Of a DNA stretch of 6,362 nt, positions 127 through 6,362 are shown in pieces (position 1 is the stretch's first letter; each line of letters starts with the position of its first letter). The DNA comes from Pseudomonadota bacterium. Lineage in GTDB: Bacteria > Myxococcota > Polyangia > Polyangiales > Polyangiaceae. The notes below the pieces were generated by a model that saw only the letters and a list, made by a program, of their open reading frames with translations, made no database searches and had not been told where the DNA came from. The DNA lies in the NCBI GenBank assembly GCA_023419055.1, contig JAEZYO010000047.1, positions 1 to 6,362 on the forward strand, in the 5' to 3' direction. The translations under genes were made by a program, and so were the position numbers.

Positions 127-401
127 CCGCGCACTCGCTGGATACGGACGGCCCACGAAGCGAGCACCAACGACTGCAAGAAGTAGGCGACGTGCTCGAC
201 GACGTTGAAGAACGTGTACGCGGCAAAGTGCTCGAGCACGGTCGCGAGCCCCCCGACCACGAGGCAGGCCATGGCGGCGTTGAGCAACTGCCACGACGGG
301 ACGCGCTGCAAGTCCGCGCGGAAGCGGATGCTGCACGCACAAACGAAGACCGCGCTGATGAGCACGGTGATCTCCCGAGCGTCGAAGGGAGTCACCATCA
401 T
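123..401 (-). CDS. Small integral membrane protein with twin Glu-His motifs
   Basis: A 92-residue protein if read from the ATG at 401-399. A second ATG follows directly, and an in-frame TTG at 437 would add 12 residues rich in Gly/Asp/Lys that look less natural. Three hydrophobic segments are visible at about residues 11-24, 38-56 and 62-85, separated by a basic loop (R26-F-R-A-D...R33). Two Glu-His pairs, E57-H58 and E69-H70, lie 12 residues apart in or at the edge of the second and third hydrophobic segments. Intramembrane Glu/His pairs can bind metal, haem or protons, but I do not recognise the family and infer no reaction. The stop overlaps the start of the next minus-strand gene, so the two are probably co-translated. 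The gene lies about 116 bp downstream of the methyltransferase on the same strand and may share its transcript. No strong Shine-Dalgarno is seen. Confidence 0.65.
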   Translation of the reverse strand: MMVTPFDAREITVLISAVFVCACSIRFRADLQRVPSWQLLNAAMACLVVGGLATVLEHFAAYTFFNVVEHVAYFLQSLVLASWAVRIQRVRG

Positions 402-428
402 CCGGCCATTTTTGCCCGAGTCGCCGCC

Positions 429-462
429 TTCGAACAACGGCCCGCGCGGCGCGGCGTTCGAA
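429..462. repeat. Inverted repeat in methyltransferase / membrane-protein gap
   Basis: Arms TTCGAAC (429-435) and GTTCGAA (456-462) are perfect 7-bp complements around a 20-bp GC-rich core, which itself contains CCGCGC and GCGCGG. It lies between the end of the methyltransferase gene and the start of the small membrane protein gene. There is no T-tract on either side, so it is not a typical intrinsic terminator. It could be an operator, an RNA processing stem, or chance in GC-rich DNA. Confidence 0.25.
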
Positions 463-517
463 CAGCGCGATATTCCTCGAAAGGTGTTCCGACCGGCGCA
501 AGGCGCCAGGGGTCACG

Positions 518-1600
518 TCATTTTCGCACGACGTACCAGTTGTTCTGAATGTCGTGGGAGAGCTCGTGCTTCTCGACGCTGCCGAAGCCGGCGAGGGTCA
601 GGTACTCGCGCGTCTTTTCTTCGCCCCACATCGCGCCCAAGCCCTCGCCCCCCTGCGCCAGGGAAACCGTCATGCAGTGCATGCAGGAGATCGTGTAGAG
701 GAAGGTCCCTATCGGGTGATCGAGGTTCTTCTCGACGTGGCTCGAACCCTTGATGTCCTGCATCAGGTACACGCCGTCGGCGGCGAGCACGCGGCTTATT
801 CCACGCAGCAGCGCGAGCGGTCTGGCTTGGTCGTGCACCGCGTCGAAGGTGGTGACGAAGTCCGCGCTCCCTTCCTCCGCGGTCACGTCGAAGTCCGAGA
901 GATCGCGCACCGCGAAGCGTGCGTTCGAGAGCCCTCGTCGTTCGGCCTCCTCGCGCGCCGAAGCGATCGCTTCGCTCGAGAGATCGTAACCCAGGAAGGA
1001 ACTCTTCGGGTAACGCGCCGCGAGCTCGGCGACGATCTTGCCGCTACCGCAACCGAGGTCGAGGACGCGCATTCCTCTCGAGAGCCGGTCCGCGAGGTCA
1101 GGCACGAGCGGGATGACGTGCGTCGAAAGCGCGGCGAGCACGGACTGGCCGCTGTCCTCCGCCATGACGGCGTGAAATCGAGGGAAGCGCTCGTAGGGCA
1201 CCCCTCCGCCGCGACGGAAGCAGCCCACGATGTCGTCTTCCACGCCTCCGAGCACCGCGACGTACTGACTGAACACCGCCAGGTTGTCCGCGCCCGCCTT
1301 GCGCGTGAGAACGGCGGCGTGCTCCGGCGGCAGCCGGAAACGCGCGCCTTCCGCGTCGAATTCGACGACCCGCGCCGTCACCATCGCCCCGAGCCACTCG
1401 CGCACGTAACGCTCGTTCAGGCCTGCGGCCAGCGCAAGCTCGTCGCTGGTTCGAGGCGGGCCCTCGCGCATCACGTCGAACAGGCCGGTGCGGTGGCCGA
1501 TGGACATCATCAAGCAGAGCGCACCCTGGTTGAGGGCAGCAATCAGGGACCCGGCAAAGGCTTCGGCGCGGGCTGGATCGAACGCTGCGTCGTCCGGCAT
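518..1600 (-). CDS. Class I SAM-dependent methyltransferase, Rv2258c-like, with N-terminal winged-helix domain
   Basis: A 360-residue cytoplasmic protein, close to the length of the Mycobacterium tuberculosis Rv2258c family (about 350). Residues about 20-95 form the winged-helix-like domain of these enzymes, with I-G-H-R-T-G-L-F-D near 34-42, then T-S-D-E-L-A and a long helix with E-R-Y-V-R-E-W-L near 63-70. The Rossmann fold begins with motif I, R-V-L-D-L-G-C-G-S-G-K, at 178-188. It continues with the acidic ribose-binding residue in G-Y-D-L (D206), the adenine-contact region V-R-D-L-S-D-F (231-237) and motif IV-like F-V-T-T-F-D-A-V-H-D (248-257). The C-terminal part carries the family-typical segment S-C-M-H-C-M-T-V-S-L (305-314), then G-G-E-G-L-G-A-M-W-G. 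Known relatives are class I methyltransferases on small molecules whose natural substrate is mostly unknown, so I give none. The start is set by the ATG at 1600-1598, nine bases after a strong GGGGAGG. The gene is divergent from the Kelch gene and leads a minus-strand series with two membrane-protein genes. Confidence 0.93.
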   Translation of the reverse strand: MPDDAAFDPARAEAFAGSLIAALNQGALCLMMSIGHRTGLFDVMREGPPRTSDELALAAGLNERYVREWLGAMVTARVVEFDAEGARFRLPPEHAAVLTRKAGADNLAVFSQYVAVLGGVEDDIVGCFRRGGGVPYERFPRFHAVMAEDSGQSVLAALSTHVIPLVPDLADRLSRGMRVLDLGCGSGKIVAELAARYPKSSFLGYDLSSEAIASAREEAERRGLSNARFAVRDLSDFDVTAEEGSADFVTTFDAVHDQARPLALLRGISRVLAADGVYLMQDIKGSSHVEKNLDHPIGTFLYTISCMHCMTVSLAQGGEGLGAMWGEEKTREYLTLAGFGSVEKHELSHDIQNNWYVVRK

Positions 1601-1700: not shown

Positions 1701-1750
1701 GACCGGTTCCATTCGGTAATTTCTTGTGGCGCGGGGTCGGGGAATTTTGC

Positions 1751-3298
1751 ATGGTTAGAGCCGTGGAGCGGAGGTCTAAATTTTTCGCGGGCCAAGCGTG
1801 GCTCGCAGGCGGTCCCATCCTGCTGGTCGCTGCTGCTTCGGCGGCGGCGTCTGCGTGCTCGGACGATTTCGAGGGCTGCGAGGCCAGTCTCGATTGCACG
1901 ACTCCCGGCGTCGAAACGGGCGGTCAAGGAGGAGACGGCACCGGCGCGGGCGAAGGCGGTGCAGCAGGCGATGTCGCTGGCCCCTCGGGCGGCAGCGACG
2001 CGAGCGGCGGGGCGGCCTCCGAAGGCGGGGCCGCGGGCGAAAGTTCGGGTGGCGGCGGCGGGGATTCATCGACCGAGTCCTGCGTCCCGGCCGAATGCGA
2101 CACCCCTCCGAGCAACGACTGCACCGATCCGAACACGCTCCTCGTCTACGAGAACACGGGCGAGTGCGTCGAGGGCGAGTGCAGCTATGAGTCGAGCACT
2201 CGCCACTGCGCAGCAGGGTGCACCGTGGACGCTTGCGACGGGAACGAATGGATCCCGCTCACGGACGTCAACGTGCCGGGCTCGCGCCACAGCCACAGCG
2301 CCGTCTGGACCGGCACTGAAATGATCGTCTGGGGCGGCGCGGTGAGCGCGCCCTCGGTATACCTGCAGGACGGGGGACGCTTCAATCCGGCTCGCGATGA
2401 CGCAGATGCTTGGATCCCGCTCACGACGAACGGCGCGCCGACCACTCGCGCGGACCACACCGCCGTCTGGACGGGCAAGGAAATGATCGTCTGGGGCGGC
2501 TCGACCTACAGCGCGAGCGGCAGCGTCCTCGGCACCGGCGGCCGCTACAACCCCACGTCCGGCTGGACCTTCACCAACAACACCAATGCGCCCGCGGCGC
2601 GTACTGGGCACACCGCGGTGTGGACCGGGAAGGAAATGATCGTCTGGGGAGGCTTCACGACCGTGCCCGTCGCGAGCGGAGGCCGCTACGTCGCCGCGGA
2701 CAACGAGTGGATCACGGCTCCCACCAGCACCGGCGCGCCGAGCCCTAGGCAGCAGCATACGGCCGTCTGGACCGGAACCGAGATGATCATCTGGGGAGGC
2801 AACGGCGACACCACGGGAGACCCTGCGCCCCTCGGCAGCGGCGCGCGGTACGACCCTGAAAAGAACGAGTGGACCGCCGTCTCGACCACGAACGCGCCGA
2901 GCCCGCGTTTCTCGCATACCGCCGTCTGGACCGGCTCCGAGATGATCGTCTGGGGCGGTGACGGTACGAGCGACGGCACCCCGGGGCCGCTCGACTCCGG
3001 CGGGCGCTACGACCCGAAGACCAACACTTGGGCGCCGCTCCCTTCGCAAACACCCCGTCGACTGCACACGGCGATCTGGACCGGCAGCGAAATGATCGTC
3101 TGGGGCGGATACGGTACCAGCAGCAACGTCGAGCAGGGCGCGATCTACGACCCTACCGATGACGAATGGACGCCGCTCCCTGTAGGCCCGGCGGGACGAA
3201 CCTCCCACACCGCCGTCTGGACCGGCACGGAGATGATTGTCTGGGGCGGCGCCATCGGAGGCCCTGGGACCTCGTCGGGTGGGCGCTACGTGCGCTAA
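1751..3298 (+). CDS. Exported Kelch-like seven-bladed beta-propeller, putative lipoprotein, with Cys-rich module
   Basis: The ATG at 1751 (after GGGGA, seven bases) gives 515 residues; an upstream TTG at 1724 is less likely. Residues 1-36 are a basic start, a hydrophobic core (P-I-L-L-V-A-A-A-S) and a degenerate lipobox A-S-A-C, so C36 may be lipidated. Residues 54-110 are a low-complexity Gly/Ala/Ser/Asp/Glu tether. Residues 111-162 carry eight cysteines (111, 116, 124, 139, 144, 153, 157, 162), presumably four disulfides. The rest is seven copies of a 47-54-residue repeat with core H-T-A-V-W-T-G-x-E-M-I-V-W-G-G, then G-G-R-Y-x-P and a W-x-P-L strand: Kelch/galactose-oxidase-type propeller blades. 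The last copy stops at G-G-R-Y-V-R and lacks its W-x-P-L strand. The matching strand (E-W-I-P-L-T, 166-171) precedes repeat 1, so the ring is probably closed by the N-terminus. No enzyme motif is seen. Propellers of this type usually bind proteins or glycans at the surface. Confidence 0.9.
   Translation: MVRAVERRSKFFAGQAWLAGGPILLVAAASAAASACSDDFEGCEASLDCTTPGVETGGQGGDGTGAGEGGAAGDVAGPSGGSDASGGAASEGGAAGESSGGGGGDSSTESCVPAECDTPPSNDCTDPNTLLVYENTGECVEGECSYESSTRHCAAGCTVDACDGNEWIPLTDVNVPGSRHSHSAVWTGTEMIVWGGAVSAPSVYLQDGGRFNPARDDADAWIPLTTNGAPTTRADHTAVWTGKEMIVWGGSTYSASGSVLGTGGRYNPTSGWTFTNNTNAPAARTGHTAVWTGKEMIVWGGFTTVPVASGGRYVAADNEWITAPTSTGAPSPRQQHTAVWTGTEMIIWGGNGDTTGDPAPLGSGARYDPEKNEWTAVSTTNAPSPRFSHTAVWTGSEMIVWGGDGTSDGTPGPLDSGGRYDPKTNTWAPLPSQTPRRLHTAIWTGSEMIVWGGYGTSSNVEQGAIYDPTDDEWTPLPVGPAGRTSHTAVWTGTEMIVWGGAIGGPGTSSGGRYVR
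1922..2080 (+). repeat. Low-complexity Gly/Ala/Ser-rich tether of the Kelch protein
   Basis: GGC/GCG-rich degenerate triplet DNA encoding residues 58-110, with G-G-x-G-G and G-G-A-A motifs and scattered Asp/Glu. It separates the membrane-anchored end from the Cys-rich and propeller domains. It is irregular rather than an exact tandem array. Confidence 0.7.
2294..3250 (+). repeat. Seven-copy Kelch-like coding repeat
   Basis: The 45-bp core encoding H-x-A-V-W-T-G-x-E-M-I-V-W-G-G occurs at 2294-2338, 2456-2500, 2609-2653, 2756-2800, 2915-2959, 3065-3109 and 3206-3250. Cores start 162, 153, 147, 159, 150 and 141 bp apart. The core is nearly invariant in protein and highly similar in DNA (for example GTCTGGACCGG, ATGATCGTCTGGGG). 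The loops between cores differ in length and sequence. This indicates internal duplication with selection on the blade core and divergence of the exposed loops. Confidence 0.88.
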
Positions 3299-3311: not shown

Positions 3312-5198
3312 TCAGTCGAGCACCGCGTTGCAGTCGAGCTCGGTGATGGGGTCCCCTGGCAGCGCCGGCGCGCTGTAGAGCGCAACCGCACCGCCGGGCT
3401 CGTTCGCCGAGTCCCGCGCGGCCGGGCACTCGATCGTGAGGTCGGCCCCGCCCGCCTCGACGAGCTCGTTGACGACCGCGTCGCGGTAGACGCAAGCGGT
3501 GCCGGATTCGAGGACGTGGCTGTACTCGCACGCGCGCACGACGGCAGGAGCAGCGCCTTCCGGTAGGGCGCAGCGGAGCGTGACGGTGGCGCCCGGCTCG
3601 CAGGGTACGGTGGTGAGCGTACCGGCGCCCTCTTGGAAGCCGCAATCGCGCAGCGGGCCGAGCTGTCCGCGCGCGCACTCGGAGGTGATGAGCCCGCCGC
3701 GGGTGATCTCGACCGTCTTGTCGCCGCGGTTGTTCTCGTCCCAGCCCGGCACGAAATCGCACACCGCGCGATCGACCGGGTCCCCATGGACGGTCTCGAA
3801 CTCCGTGGCCTGGAAGGTGGGGTTCCCGGCGTCATCCAGCACGGGGCTGCCCTCGCACAAGAACGCGTGCGGGTTGAACACGAAGCTCAACTTCCCTTCG
3901 GCGCTGCCGCTCGAGAGATCGAGGTCCGTGACGTCGACCCACTGGCACTCGATGCCGGCGCCGTAGTCGTCACCCCAGCCGGCCTGGATCCCCTGGAAGT
4001 TGCACGCGCCGTACGGATGGGTCAGCGGCGAATACTCGTTGTTGGAGTAGCGCGAGGTGCTCTGCAAGCAGAAGGCCTGCTTGTTGCCCGACTGCTCTCC
4101 TCCGCTGCCGAACAAGAAATCGCCGTAGTACGAGAAATGATAGTGCTCGTGGCAGGAGCTGTACTCGAAGATGTTGTGGTCCGCGAGGATCGAGCCCGAC
4201 CCTTCGAGGTAGTAGTCGACGTCTCCGATCGCGAGCGCCGCTCCCCCCAGGTTCTTGACGCTCGCGTCGAACTGCAAGAGCCGTCGCCACCCGGTTCCAC
4301 CCACGCAGCCCTCGGCGAGCGCGCAGGAGTTCTCGTCGATGTAGCGGTAGATGACCCGCTCCACGTCCAAGCCCTCCGGGATGACGGCGATGTCCGGCTG
4401 GTCCGGAGCGACGACCTCCCCCACGCGGACAGACTCGGCGAGCTCTTCGTTCCAGGCGAGCCGCTCGAAGCGCAGGGTCGTTTCCACCGCGCCCACCGCG
4501 CGCTCGAGCGCCTCGACGCAGTCCTCGTCGGGGATCTCCGTCAGGTGGCAGTCGTTCTCGCCGGCCTCGCACTCCTGGTCGTAAAACGTGGCGACGTTCT
4601 CGCCGTCCACGCTGTTCGGCGGAAACTCGGATTCGTCCATGCACGCGTAGCCGGTACGCTGCAGCAAGAGCTCCGGATCGAGCGGGAAGACGAACGGTTC
4701 GTCCCAGGTGCCGCCGATGGGCACGAGCGTCTGCTCCGCCTCGACCACGGACTCGGCGTTGGTCAAGAGCGTGCTCGTCATCTCGTAGTCCACGACGACG
4801 AGGTCGTGACCATCCTGCTCGACGCGACGCGGCTCGTTCGAGAGTTCGAACTCCCAGAGCTCGCTCGGTGGGAGAGGGAGCTGACCCTTGTTCTCTTCCT
4901 CGTCGTAGAAGAAGTCGCGGAAGACGAGCCGATAGAGCGCGAGGGTGACCTGCGCCCGGGCGCGCGCCTCCCAGAAGTCGTCGCCCTTCGCCGCGAGCTC
5001 CTCGGCGGCCCGGTCGCGGATCCCTTCCGGTAGCTCGTCGAGCAGCACCCCTACCCTGCCGTCGAGGCTCGTGCGAATGAGCGCTCCCTCGGGCGCGCTC
5101 GCCGGGTTCCCTTCGACGTCGTCGTCCGACGCGCAACCCGCGAGGATGAAGAGCCAGCAATTGAGCGCCCAGACAGAACCTCGAAGTCCTTTTCTCAT
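3312..5198 (-). CDS. Lysyl oxidase-domain lipoprotein (copper/quinone amine oxidase candidate)
   Basis: A 628-residue lipoprotein; L-A-G-C is a perfect lipobox with C22 as lipidation site. Residues 23-265 are an unassigned, mostly acidic region with C186, C210, C217 and C227. Residues about 268-480 match lysyl oxidase: P-D-I-A-V at the start, C-A-L-A-E-G-C (292-298), L-L-Q-F-D-A-S-V-K-N (307-316), then C-H-E-H-Y-H (349-354) carrying H350, H352 and H354. G-N-K-Q-A-F-C-L (371-378) and D-D-Y-G-A-G-I-E-C-Q-W (410-420) follow. These match human LOX H292/H294/H296 and the cofactor residues K320 (here K373) and Y355 (here Y412), so a lysine tyrosylquinone could form. The family oxidises primary amines to aldehydes with O2, releasing ammonia and H2O2. 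Residues 500-628 are another Cys-rich, unassigned region. Start 5198 follows AGAGGG by seven bases; an in-frame ATG at 5327 would bury the signal peptide. The gene follows the barrel-protein gene and converges on the Kelch gene. Confidence 0.9.
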   Translation of the reverse strand: MRKGLRGSVWALNCWLFILAGCASDDDVEGNPASAPEGALIRTSLDGRVGVLLDELPEGIRDRAAEELAAKGDDFWEARARAQVTLALYRLVFRDFFYDEEENKGQLPLPPSELWEFELSNEPRRVEQDGHDLVVVDYEMTSTLLTNAESVVEAEQTLVPIGGTWDEPFVFPLDPELLLQRTGYACMDESEFPPNSVDGENVATFYDQECEAGENDCHLTEIPDEDCVEALERAVGAVETTLRFERLAWNEELAESVRVGEVVAPDQPDIAVIPEGLDVERVIYRYIDENSCALAEGCVGGTGWRRLLQFDASVKNLGGAALAIGDVDYYLEGSGSILADHNIFEYSSCHEHYHFSYYGDFLFGSGGEQSGNKQAFCLQSTSRYSNNEYSPLTHPYGACNFQGIQAGWGDDYGAGIECQWVDVTDLDLSSGSAEGKLSFVFNPHAFLCEGSPVLDDAGNPTFQATEFETVHGDPVDRAVCDFVPGWDENNRGDKTVEITRGGLITSECARGQLGPLRDCGFQEGAGTLTTVPCEPGATVTLRCALPEGAAPAVVRACEYSHVLESGTACVYRDAVVNELVEAGGADLTIECPAARDSANEPGGAVALYSAPALPGDPITELDCNAVLD

Positions 5199-5362: not shown

Positions 5363-6362
5363 TCAGGGGCAGTGACCGGGAGCGTCGAGGGTCGAGCGCA
5401 GGTTCGTGATGGTTTGGTTCCATTGATCCGGAACCATCACGTGCGTGATCGCCACGACGCCGTCGTCGATGCGATCGTTCAGATGGTTCGCGTCGTCCCA
5501 GCGATCGTCGTGCACCAGGCCCTGACACTCGTTGCCGCCACAGTAGCTCGCGTCGGCGATGATGGGCTTGCCCGTCGTTTGCGAGACGAACTGCCAGCTG
5601 AGCTGCCCCTGCCGGATGCTCGTGAGGTCGCCCCGCGTCGCTCCGCCGGACGTGTTCATGAAGGTGAACTCGTCCATCGGAAAGTGCGAGATCCAGTCGG
5701 AGAAGACCGACTGGGTCATCCACGGGGAGATGTCGAGCGAGAACACGGAGTTCGGCAGGGCTGCCTTGATGGCGGCGACGATCGCTTTCATGGCGTCGCC
5801 CGCTTCCTGGAACGTGAGCGGGTTGTTCTTCTGGCTGCCTGGCGTCGCGTACTGGTAAAAGTCGGGCTCCATCAGCCAGATCACGGGCTTTTCCGTCCCG
5901 TAGCTCGAGGCAACGCCCTGCGCGTACTTTTCGTACTGCGGGATCACTCGATCGTAGAGGTGGTCGCGCAGGTACTGCGCACCCGCGGTGCACAGGTTTT
6001 CGCTGCTGGTCTGACACGTCACGTTGCAGTCGCAGAGCCCCAGATCACGCCGAGAGGTGAACGCGATGACGTAGCCGTACAGCACCGGCAGCATGTGTTC
6101 CGCGCCGGCGCCGGGCTTGAAATCGTTGAACATCCAACCGAGATTGAAATCTTCTCCGCTACCCGCCCAGGCGCTCAGGTACTCTACCTCGCTGATCTTG
6201 TCGTTGGTCCACTGGTTGTGATCCATGCCGAAATGAAAACGGCAGGTGTCGAAGACCTCGGTGAAGGTCAAGCCGCCGGTACCGCCGGTACCAGCGCCGC
6301 CCGTTCCGGAAGGCGACCCGCCGGTCCCACCCGCGCCACCCGCCGCCGGAGGTGCGCCGCCC
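5363..6362 (-). CDS. Exported glycoside hydrolase-like TIM-barrel protein, 5'-truncated by window edge
   Basis: The frame is open from the window edge (first full codon 6361-6359) to TGA at 5365-5363, giving 332 residues. The true start and probable signal peptide lie beyond the window. A TTG at 6271 could be read as a start, but the upstream Gly/Thr/Ala/Pro codons continue in frame and look like a real tether. Numbered from the first full codon, alternating strands and helices suggest a (beta/alpha)8 barrel: R-F-H-F-G-M-D (41-47), N-L-G-W-M-F-N-D (73-80), L-P-V-L-Y-G-Y-V-I-A (91-100), P-V-I-W-L-M-E-P-D-F (159-168), V-F-S-L-D-I-S-P-W (206-214), F-T-F-M-N-T (232-237), P-I-I-A-D-A-S-Y (266-273) and V-V-A-I-T-H-V-M-V (302-310). 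E165 sits where many glycosidase barrels carry their acid/base; D167, D210 and D270 end other strands. Cysteines at 40, 110, 112, 116, 124, 274, 279 and 331 suggest disulfides, as in an exported enzyme. I cannot assign a GH family or substrate. Confidence 0.75.
   Translation of the reverse strand, partial: GGAPPAAGGAGGTGGSPSGTGGAGTGGTGGLTFTEVFDTCRFHFGMDHNQWTNDKISEVEYLSAWAGSGEDFNLGWMFNDFKPGAGAEHMLPVLYGYVIAFTSRRDLGLCDCNVTCQTSSENLCTAGAQYLRDHLYDRVIPQYEKYAQGVASSYGTEKPVIWLMEPDFYQYATPGSQKNNPLTFQEAGDAMKAIVAAIKAALPNSVFSLDISPWMTQSVFSDWISHFPMDEFTFMNTSGGATRGDLTSIRQGQLSWQFVSQTTGKPIIADASYCGGNECQGLVHDDRWDDANHLNDRIDDGVVAITHVMVPDQWNQTITNLRSTLDAPGHCP
6272..6361 (-). repeat. Gly/Thr/Ala/Pro-rich tether of the barrel protein
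   Basis: Thirty codons, almost all Gly, Ala, Thr, Pro or Ser (for example G-T-G-G-A-G-T-G-G-T-G-G), with an exact 9-bp tandem duplication CCGCCGGTA at 6273-6281 and 6282-6290. It resembles the spacer between a lipoprotein signal and the mature domain, as in the Kelch protein. It is cut by the window end. Confidence 0.65.

Follow-up and report, generated by a model that had tools for sequence, protein, structure and literature searches.

Animal lysyl oxidases (LOXs) cross-link collagen and elastin by oxidizing lysines, and relatives are also found in prokaryotes. Bacterial LOXs with the catalytic residues kept, the first histidine of the animal copper motif absent and a predicted activity were described in 2015, most prokaryotic members being reported to consist of the LOX domain alone (Grau-Bove et al., 2015; PMC4448552). 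Activity was reported in 2019 for an archaeal enzyme, HTU-LOX of Haloterrigena turkmenica, a β-aminopropionitrile (BAPN)-sensitive amine oxidase of 308 residues whose substrates include a lysine-containing peptide and which, by its description, resembles the protein considered here in that the hyperconserved histidines and the lysine tyrosylquinone (LTQ) residues are reportedly kept (PMC6452851). Here, a three-domain, 628-residue LOX, referred to as the long form, is described from a bacterium of the family Polyangiaceae. Its gene lies at 3312..5198 on the minus strand of a 6,362-nucleotide stretch, the window, of contig JAEZYO010000047.1 (assembly GCA_023419055.1) and is supported by its translation, a Pfam match and 965 relatives. 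Judging from its sequence, it would encode a cell-envelope relative of the collagen-cross-linking animal enzyme, with the residues needed for the chemistry in place. To what was known, the present analysis adds a long-form clade and its spread, an N-terminal domain with no convincing match in the PDB, natural active-site losses and pairwise losses of cysteines. For the role of LOX outside animals, a clade with complete active sites that includes, by record title, a cultured species offers a testable case.

The window protein is a member of the LOX family. The Pfam profile search that the original prediction had named as a check matched PF01186 (Lysyl_oxidase) at residues 303-429 (44.8 bits where the cut-off is 20.4; E 1.4e-11), the sole family to score above its threshold, while NCBIfam returned nothing relevant for this protein. 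Among 177,635 distinct PDB sequences, the single sequence has one match at E ≤ 1, human LOXL2 (5ZE3, E 2.8e-7), and a family profile of 60 rows brings the same match to E 1.8e-16. Both alignments place the copper motif C349-H350-E351-H352-Y353-H354 (4137..4154, minus strand, as for all features of this gene) on C-H-R-H-Y-H of LOXL2. K373 in G-N-K-Q-A-F-C-L (4080..4082) falls on the lysine of GHKASFCL, which is LOXL2 K653 or human LOX K320, and Y412 in D-Y-G-A-G-I-E-C-Q-W (3963..3965) falls on the tyrosine preceding R-H-D-I-D-C-Q-W, which is LOXL2 Y689 or human LOX Y355. The predicted structure has the LOX catalytic fold (domain at residues 266-502, 3693..4403). Predicted fold, copper triad, lysine/tyrosine pair and the cysteines of three disulphide pairs are shared with the human enzymes, whereas the SRCR domains of LOXL2 are missing and other N- and C-terminal domains, together with a predicted lipoprotein signal, are found in the window protein.

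Conservation agrees with these alignments. A search of 5.77 billion proteins gave 965 relatives among 7,996 candidates scored, and the best 120 of the 965 were listed; together with the query they form 121 rows which, as nearest relatives, are a biased sample. The best-named of the relatives come from Polyangiaceae MAGs (metagenome-assembled genomes), which makes a myxobacterial host probable. C349, H350, H352, H354, K373 and Y412 are each invariant in these rows (121/121). The catalytic quintet (H350, H352, H354, K373 and Y412) is complete in 169 of the 171 LOX-domain proteins from all three protein searches, the exceptions being P0132, with F for Y412, and P0150, with N for H350. Homology to LOX and a complete quintet are supported. 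The original prediction had read the gene as a LOX homolog retaining both quinone residues and three copper histidines, and this is upheld by Pfam, the PDB alignments, conservation and the predicted fold; it was a true observation, mainly read right, of a known kind of protein, and translation on the minus strand, a strand that the original prediction had not named, gives 628 residues plus a stop and puts each motif, including S347 at the site of human LOX H289, where it had been placed.

The long form, defined here as an N-terminal domain, a LOX domain and a cysteine-rich C-terminal domain, is a well-supported clade. In a LOX-domain tree made by a quick method from 156 rows and 181 columns, with the first-histidine and catalytic columns excluded, duplicates merged, two short pieces removed and 13 of the 171 proteins added by the author's choice, it forms a single group of 46 rows (Shimodaira-Hasegawa-like approximate likelihood ratio test, SH-aLRT, 100; stem 1.48). 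The N-terminal alpha/beta domain (residues 38-262, 4413..5087) is present in 46/46 of these rows. The C-terminal domain, a predicted beta-sandwich (residues 506-627, 3318..3683), is present in 45/46, and the row that misses it, L024, comes from a sequence that stops at a contig end. A cysteine-rich C-terminal domain has been noted in the LOX of Sorangium cellulosum, WP_012233967.1 (PMC6452851), which may be the same long form; a locus from a Sorangium sp. MAG, L013, does encode it. The same domain also occurs in frames with no detected LOX domain, at 274-687 (minus strand) of L154 and near 1246-1521 (plus strand) of L153, two loci taken in on its account; with L151 they are the three of 154 loci that have no LOX match.

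All five quintet residues are present in 43 of the 46 long-form rows, a count that slightly understates the long form because P0150 was put in the tree on account of its loss, and in 102 of the 110 other rows, whose eight exceptions include two cut or split pieces (L152 and L136). Besides P0150, the long-form exceptions are L024, with F for Y412 and a domain sequence identical to that of P0132, and a homolog from a Labilithrix MAG, in which R, Q and D replace the three copper histidines and Q replaces Y412. K373 is retained in all 46 rows, the Labilithrix protein included. The frame of the latter (L019, 10001-11863, the same gene as in L036) is open over 675 residues. Degenerate copper motifs are also seen in the LOX-domain proteins L032, L096, L114, L123, L140 and L141, the first four of which keep the lysine and the tyrosine.

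PF01186 is found in 84 of 377 genomes searched from one phylum, and the long form in 14 of the 377, counting places that reach the N-terminal domain. Scanning the contigs of GTDB species yielded 29 distinct loci. By record title, 14 are myxobacterial, two 'Deltaproteobacteria', four 'Proteobacteria', seven Chloroflexi/Anaerolineae, one Rokubacteria and one Acidobacteriota, although almost all of them come from metagenome bins, for which a title may be mistaken. By its record title, Nannocystis pusilla DSM 53165 (L002) is a cultured species carrying the long form. A tie to predatory or social life, which had been suggested at first, is weakened by the nine loci titled Chloroflexi/Anaerolineae, Rokubacteria or Acidobacteriota, these again being metagenome-bin titles.

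Six cysteines, C292, C298, C349, C377, C399 and C418, are also invariant (each 121/121) and align with LOXL2 C573, C579, C625, C657, C673 and C695. In the crystal of the LOXL2 precursor five disulphides are reported, among them 573-625, 579-695 and 657-673 (PMC9180022), and the six cysteines map onto these three; by alignment, both cysteines of the LOXL2 pair 663-685 are absent here. A different pattern modelled from bovine LOX data pairs, in LOXL2 numbers, 573-579, 625-673, 657-663 and 685-695, and a reshuffling of disulphides has been proposed as a step in cofactor formation, against which later mass spectrometry of LOXL2 is said to argue (PMC9694262; PMC9180022). Losses were counted in those tree rows, 138 of 156, that have a letter in each of the six columns. 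All six cysteines are kept in 119 rows, only C377 and C399 are lost in 10, only C298 and C418 in four, and only C292 and C349 in four; no row among the 138 loses just C292 and C298 or just C349 and C399. The one row that does not fit the crystal pairs is L133, in which C298, C349 and C418 are lost. In 18 of the 19 rows with a loss, the missing cysteines are those of a LOXL2 crystal pair, which supports the crystal pairing in bacterial LOX and, carried further, in the family as a whole. The losses would then bear on the animal dispute, both on which pattern holds and on whether reshuffling is needed to make the cofactor. Judged by eye on the tree, the 19 rows amount to about seven events; L140 and L141 are divergent and L123 has a broken copper motif, while most loss rows retain the catalytic quintet. 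The rows with pairwise losses are L018, L023, L025 and L027; L041, L100, L073, L117, L115, L071, L077, L052, L123 and L140; and L127 (two), L129 and L141.

The window protein is probably a LOX-family amine oxidase that is exported and held by a lipid anchor. Residues 1-22 (5133..5198) form a lipoprotein signal peptide with the lipobox L-A-G-C22; relatives have Cys at column 22 in 108/121 rows and a strict lipobox pattern in 84/121, so that the lipoprotein proposed in the original prediction gains support. A lipid-anchored envelope location would follow from the lipobox, and exposure at the surface may be guessed. For metal, cofactor and activity we infer the following course. The Sec/lipoprotein route would take the protein out, C22 would be lipidated and the disulphide-containing fold would form outside the cytoplasm. 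Copper would be bound by H350, H352 and H354, and with oxygen it could convert Y412 to a quinone, to which K373 would add to give LTQ. The mature enzyme would then oxidize primary amines, both lysine side chains and small amines, to aldehydes, with ammonia and hydrogen peroxide set free at the envelope.

Several points weigh against this reading. The activity, copper and cofactor of long-form proteins are carried over from the family by analogy, and the loss of catalytic residues in some long-form relatives implies that the scaffold can persist without catalysis. In the predicted structure, block means of the predicted local distance difference test (pLDDT) fall to 69-87 over residues 331-380. 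Foldseek gives low whole-chain template modelling scores (TM-scores) against LOXL2, 0.23 and 0.32, because the alignment ran across domains, and a superposition with a root-mean-square deviation of 20.8 Å over 359 columns. The second-shell histidines that aid cofactor formation in LOXL2, H623 and H652, are S347 and N372 in the window protein. A wide separation of K373 and Y412 in a model had also been proposed as grounds for rejection, but this is not a valid test for LOX, because the LOXL2 pair K653-Y689, reported to be 16.6 Å apart in the precursor, the only solved LOX structure found, still forms the cofactor (PMC9694262; PMC9180022).

The first histidine of the animal motif W-H-x-C-H-x-H-Y-H (human LOX H289, LOXL2 H623) deserves separate mention. 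Its site is occupied by S347 (4158..4160), a serine in 118/121 rows. According to Grau-Bove et al. (2015; PMC4448552), the LOX of bacteria, fungi and amoebozoans lack this histidine, and work cited there shows that copper binding and activity persist in its absence. The gap pointed out in the original prediction is therefore usual for bacteria, but not fully neutral in the LOXL2 counterpart: H623Q and H652Q are each reported to hold less than 50% of LTQ (PMC9694262). Of the 110 other LOX rows, 13 carry His at the 347 column (L078, L130, L134, L137, L138, L139, L142-L146, L148 and L150) and 48 carry it at the 372 column; one long-form row, P0099, also has His at 347. The 2015 statement on bacterial LOX thus has exceptions.

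As to substrate, a broad specificity for primary amines, rather than for one dedicated matrix protein, is the best guess by analogy, because HTU-LOX, an assayed prokaryotic LOX, oxidizes many primary amines. Among them are taurine, glycine, histamine, polymyxin and amikacin. Nitrogen release and detoxification of amine antibiotics were both put forward as roles by those who described the enzyme (PMC6452851). A scavenging or protective oxidase of this kind is a possible, if tentative, account of the long form; it leaves the extra domains unexplained, and the specificity would be borrowed from the archaeal enzyme. It is rather doubtful that the enzyme is instead a matrix cross-linker, one that links the cell's own proteins (envelope, pilus or matrix) by oxidizing their lysines in the way that animal LOX links collagen and elastin. 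The lipid anchor would place it at the envelope, its additional N- and C-terminal domains could bind a partner, and for a LOX-like protein of a red alga a role in stiffening a wall made of protein has been suggested (PMC6508830). On the other hand, with crude gene calling the most widely shared neighbor family reaches no more than 5 of 30 loci and no substrate candidate emerged, and cross-linking of bacterial collagen-like proteins was judged unlikely by Grau-Bove et al. (PMC4448552). More speculative, and improbable as a whole, is a scenario in which the long form is an amine oxidase system of its own, bound to the envelope, the hitherto undescribed N-terminal domain, for which no known fold matches, selects or presents the substrate, several bacterial phyla covalently cross-link their own surface proteins by the animal quinone chemistry and the dead relatives serve as partners or decoys. 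A purely structural or binding role, with LOX catalysis given up, would be in keeping with the Labilithrix homolog and the replacements of Y412 by F and of the first copper histidine by N, but it is very unlikely for the window protein, where every catalytic residue is present; their constancy in 169 of 171 proteins is hard to explain without catalysis. Chance likeness of motifs or a spurious frame, for which nothing was found, is refuted by the profile matches in Pfam and the PDB, by conservation and by the fold matches, and can be set aside.

Upstream of the ATG at 5198 the frame stays open to 6017, and this ATG was chosen as the start because the signal peptide with its lipobox comes after it. 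An overlapping plus-strand frame of 466 residues (3633-5033) was rejected, as no evidence supports it. One weak plasmid match and no phage match were found. On the same strand as the LOX gene, an upstream gene with a glycine-rich N-terminal stretch (5363-6361) runs off the window; neither Pfam nor NCBIfam has a match to it, and none among PDB sequences is credible. Convergent with the LOX gene lies a secreted-looking kelch-repeat protein with a glycine-rich linker (1724-3298, plus strand; PF24681, E 4.2e-43), and at 518-1600 (minus strand) the window encodes a methyltransferase with an Rv2258c-like winged-helix N-terminus.
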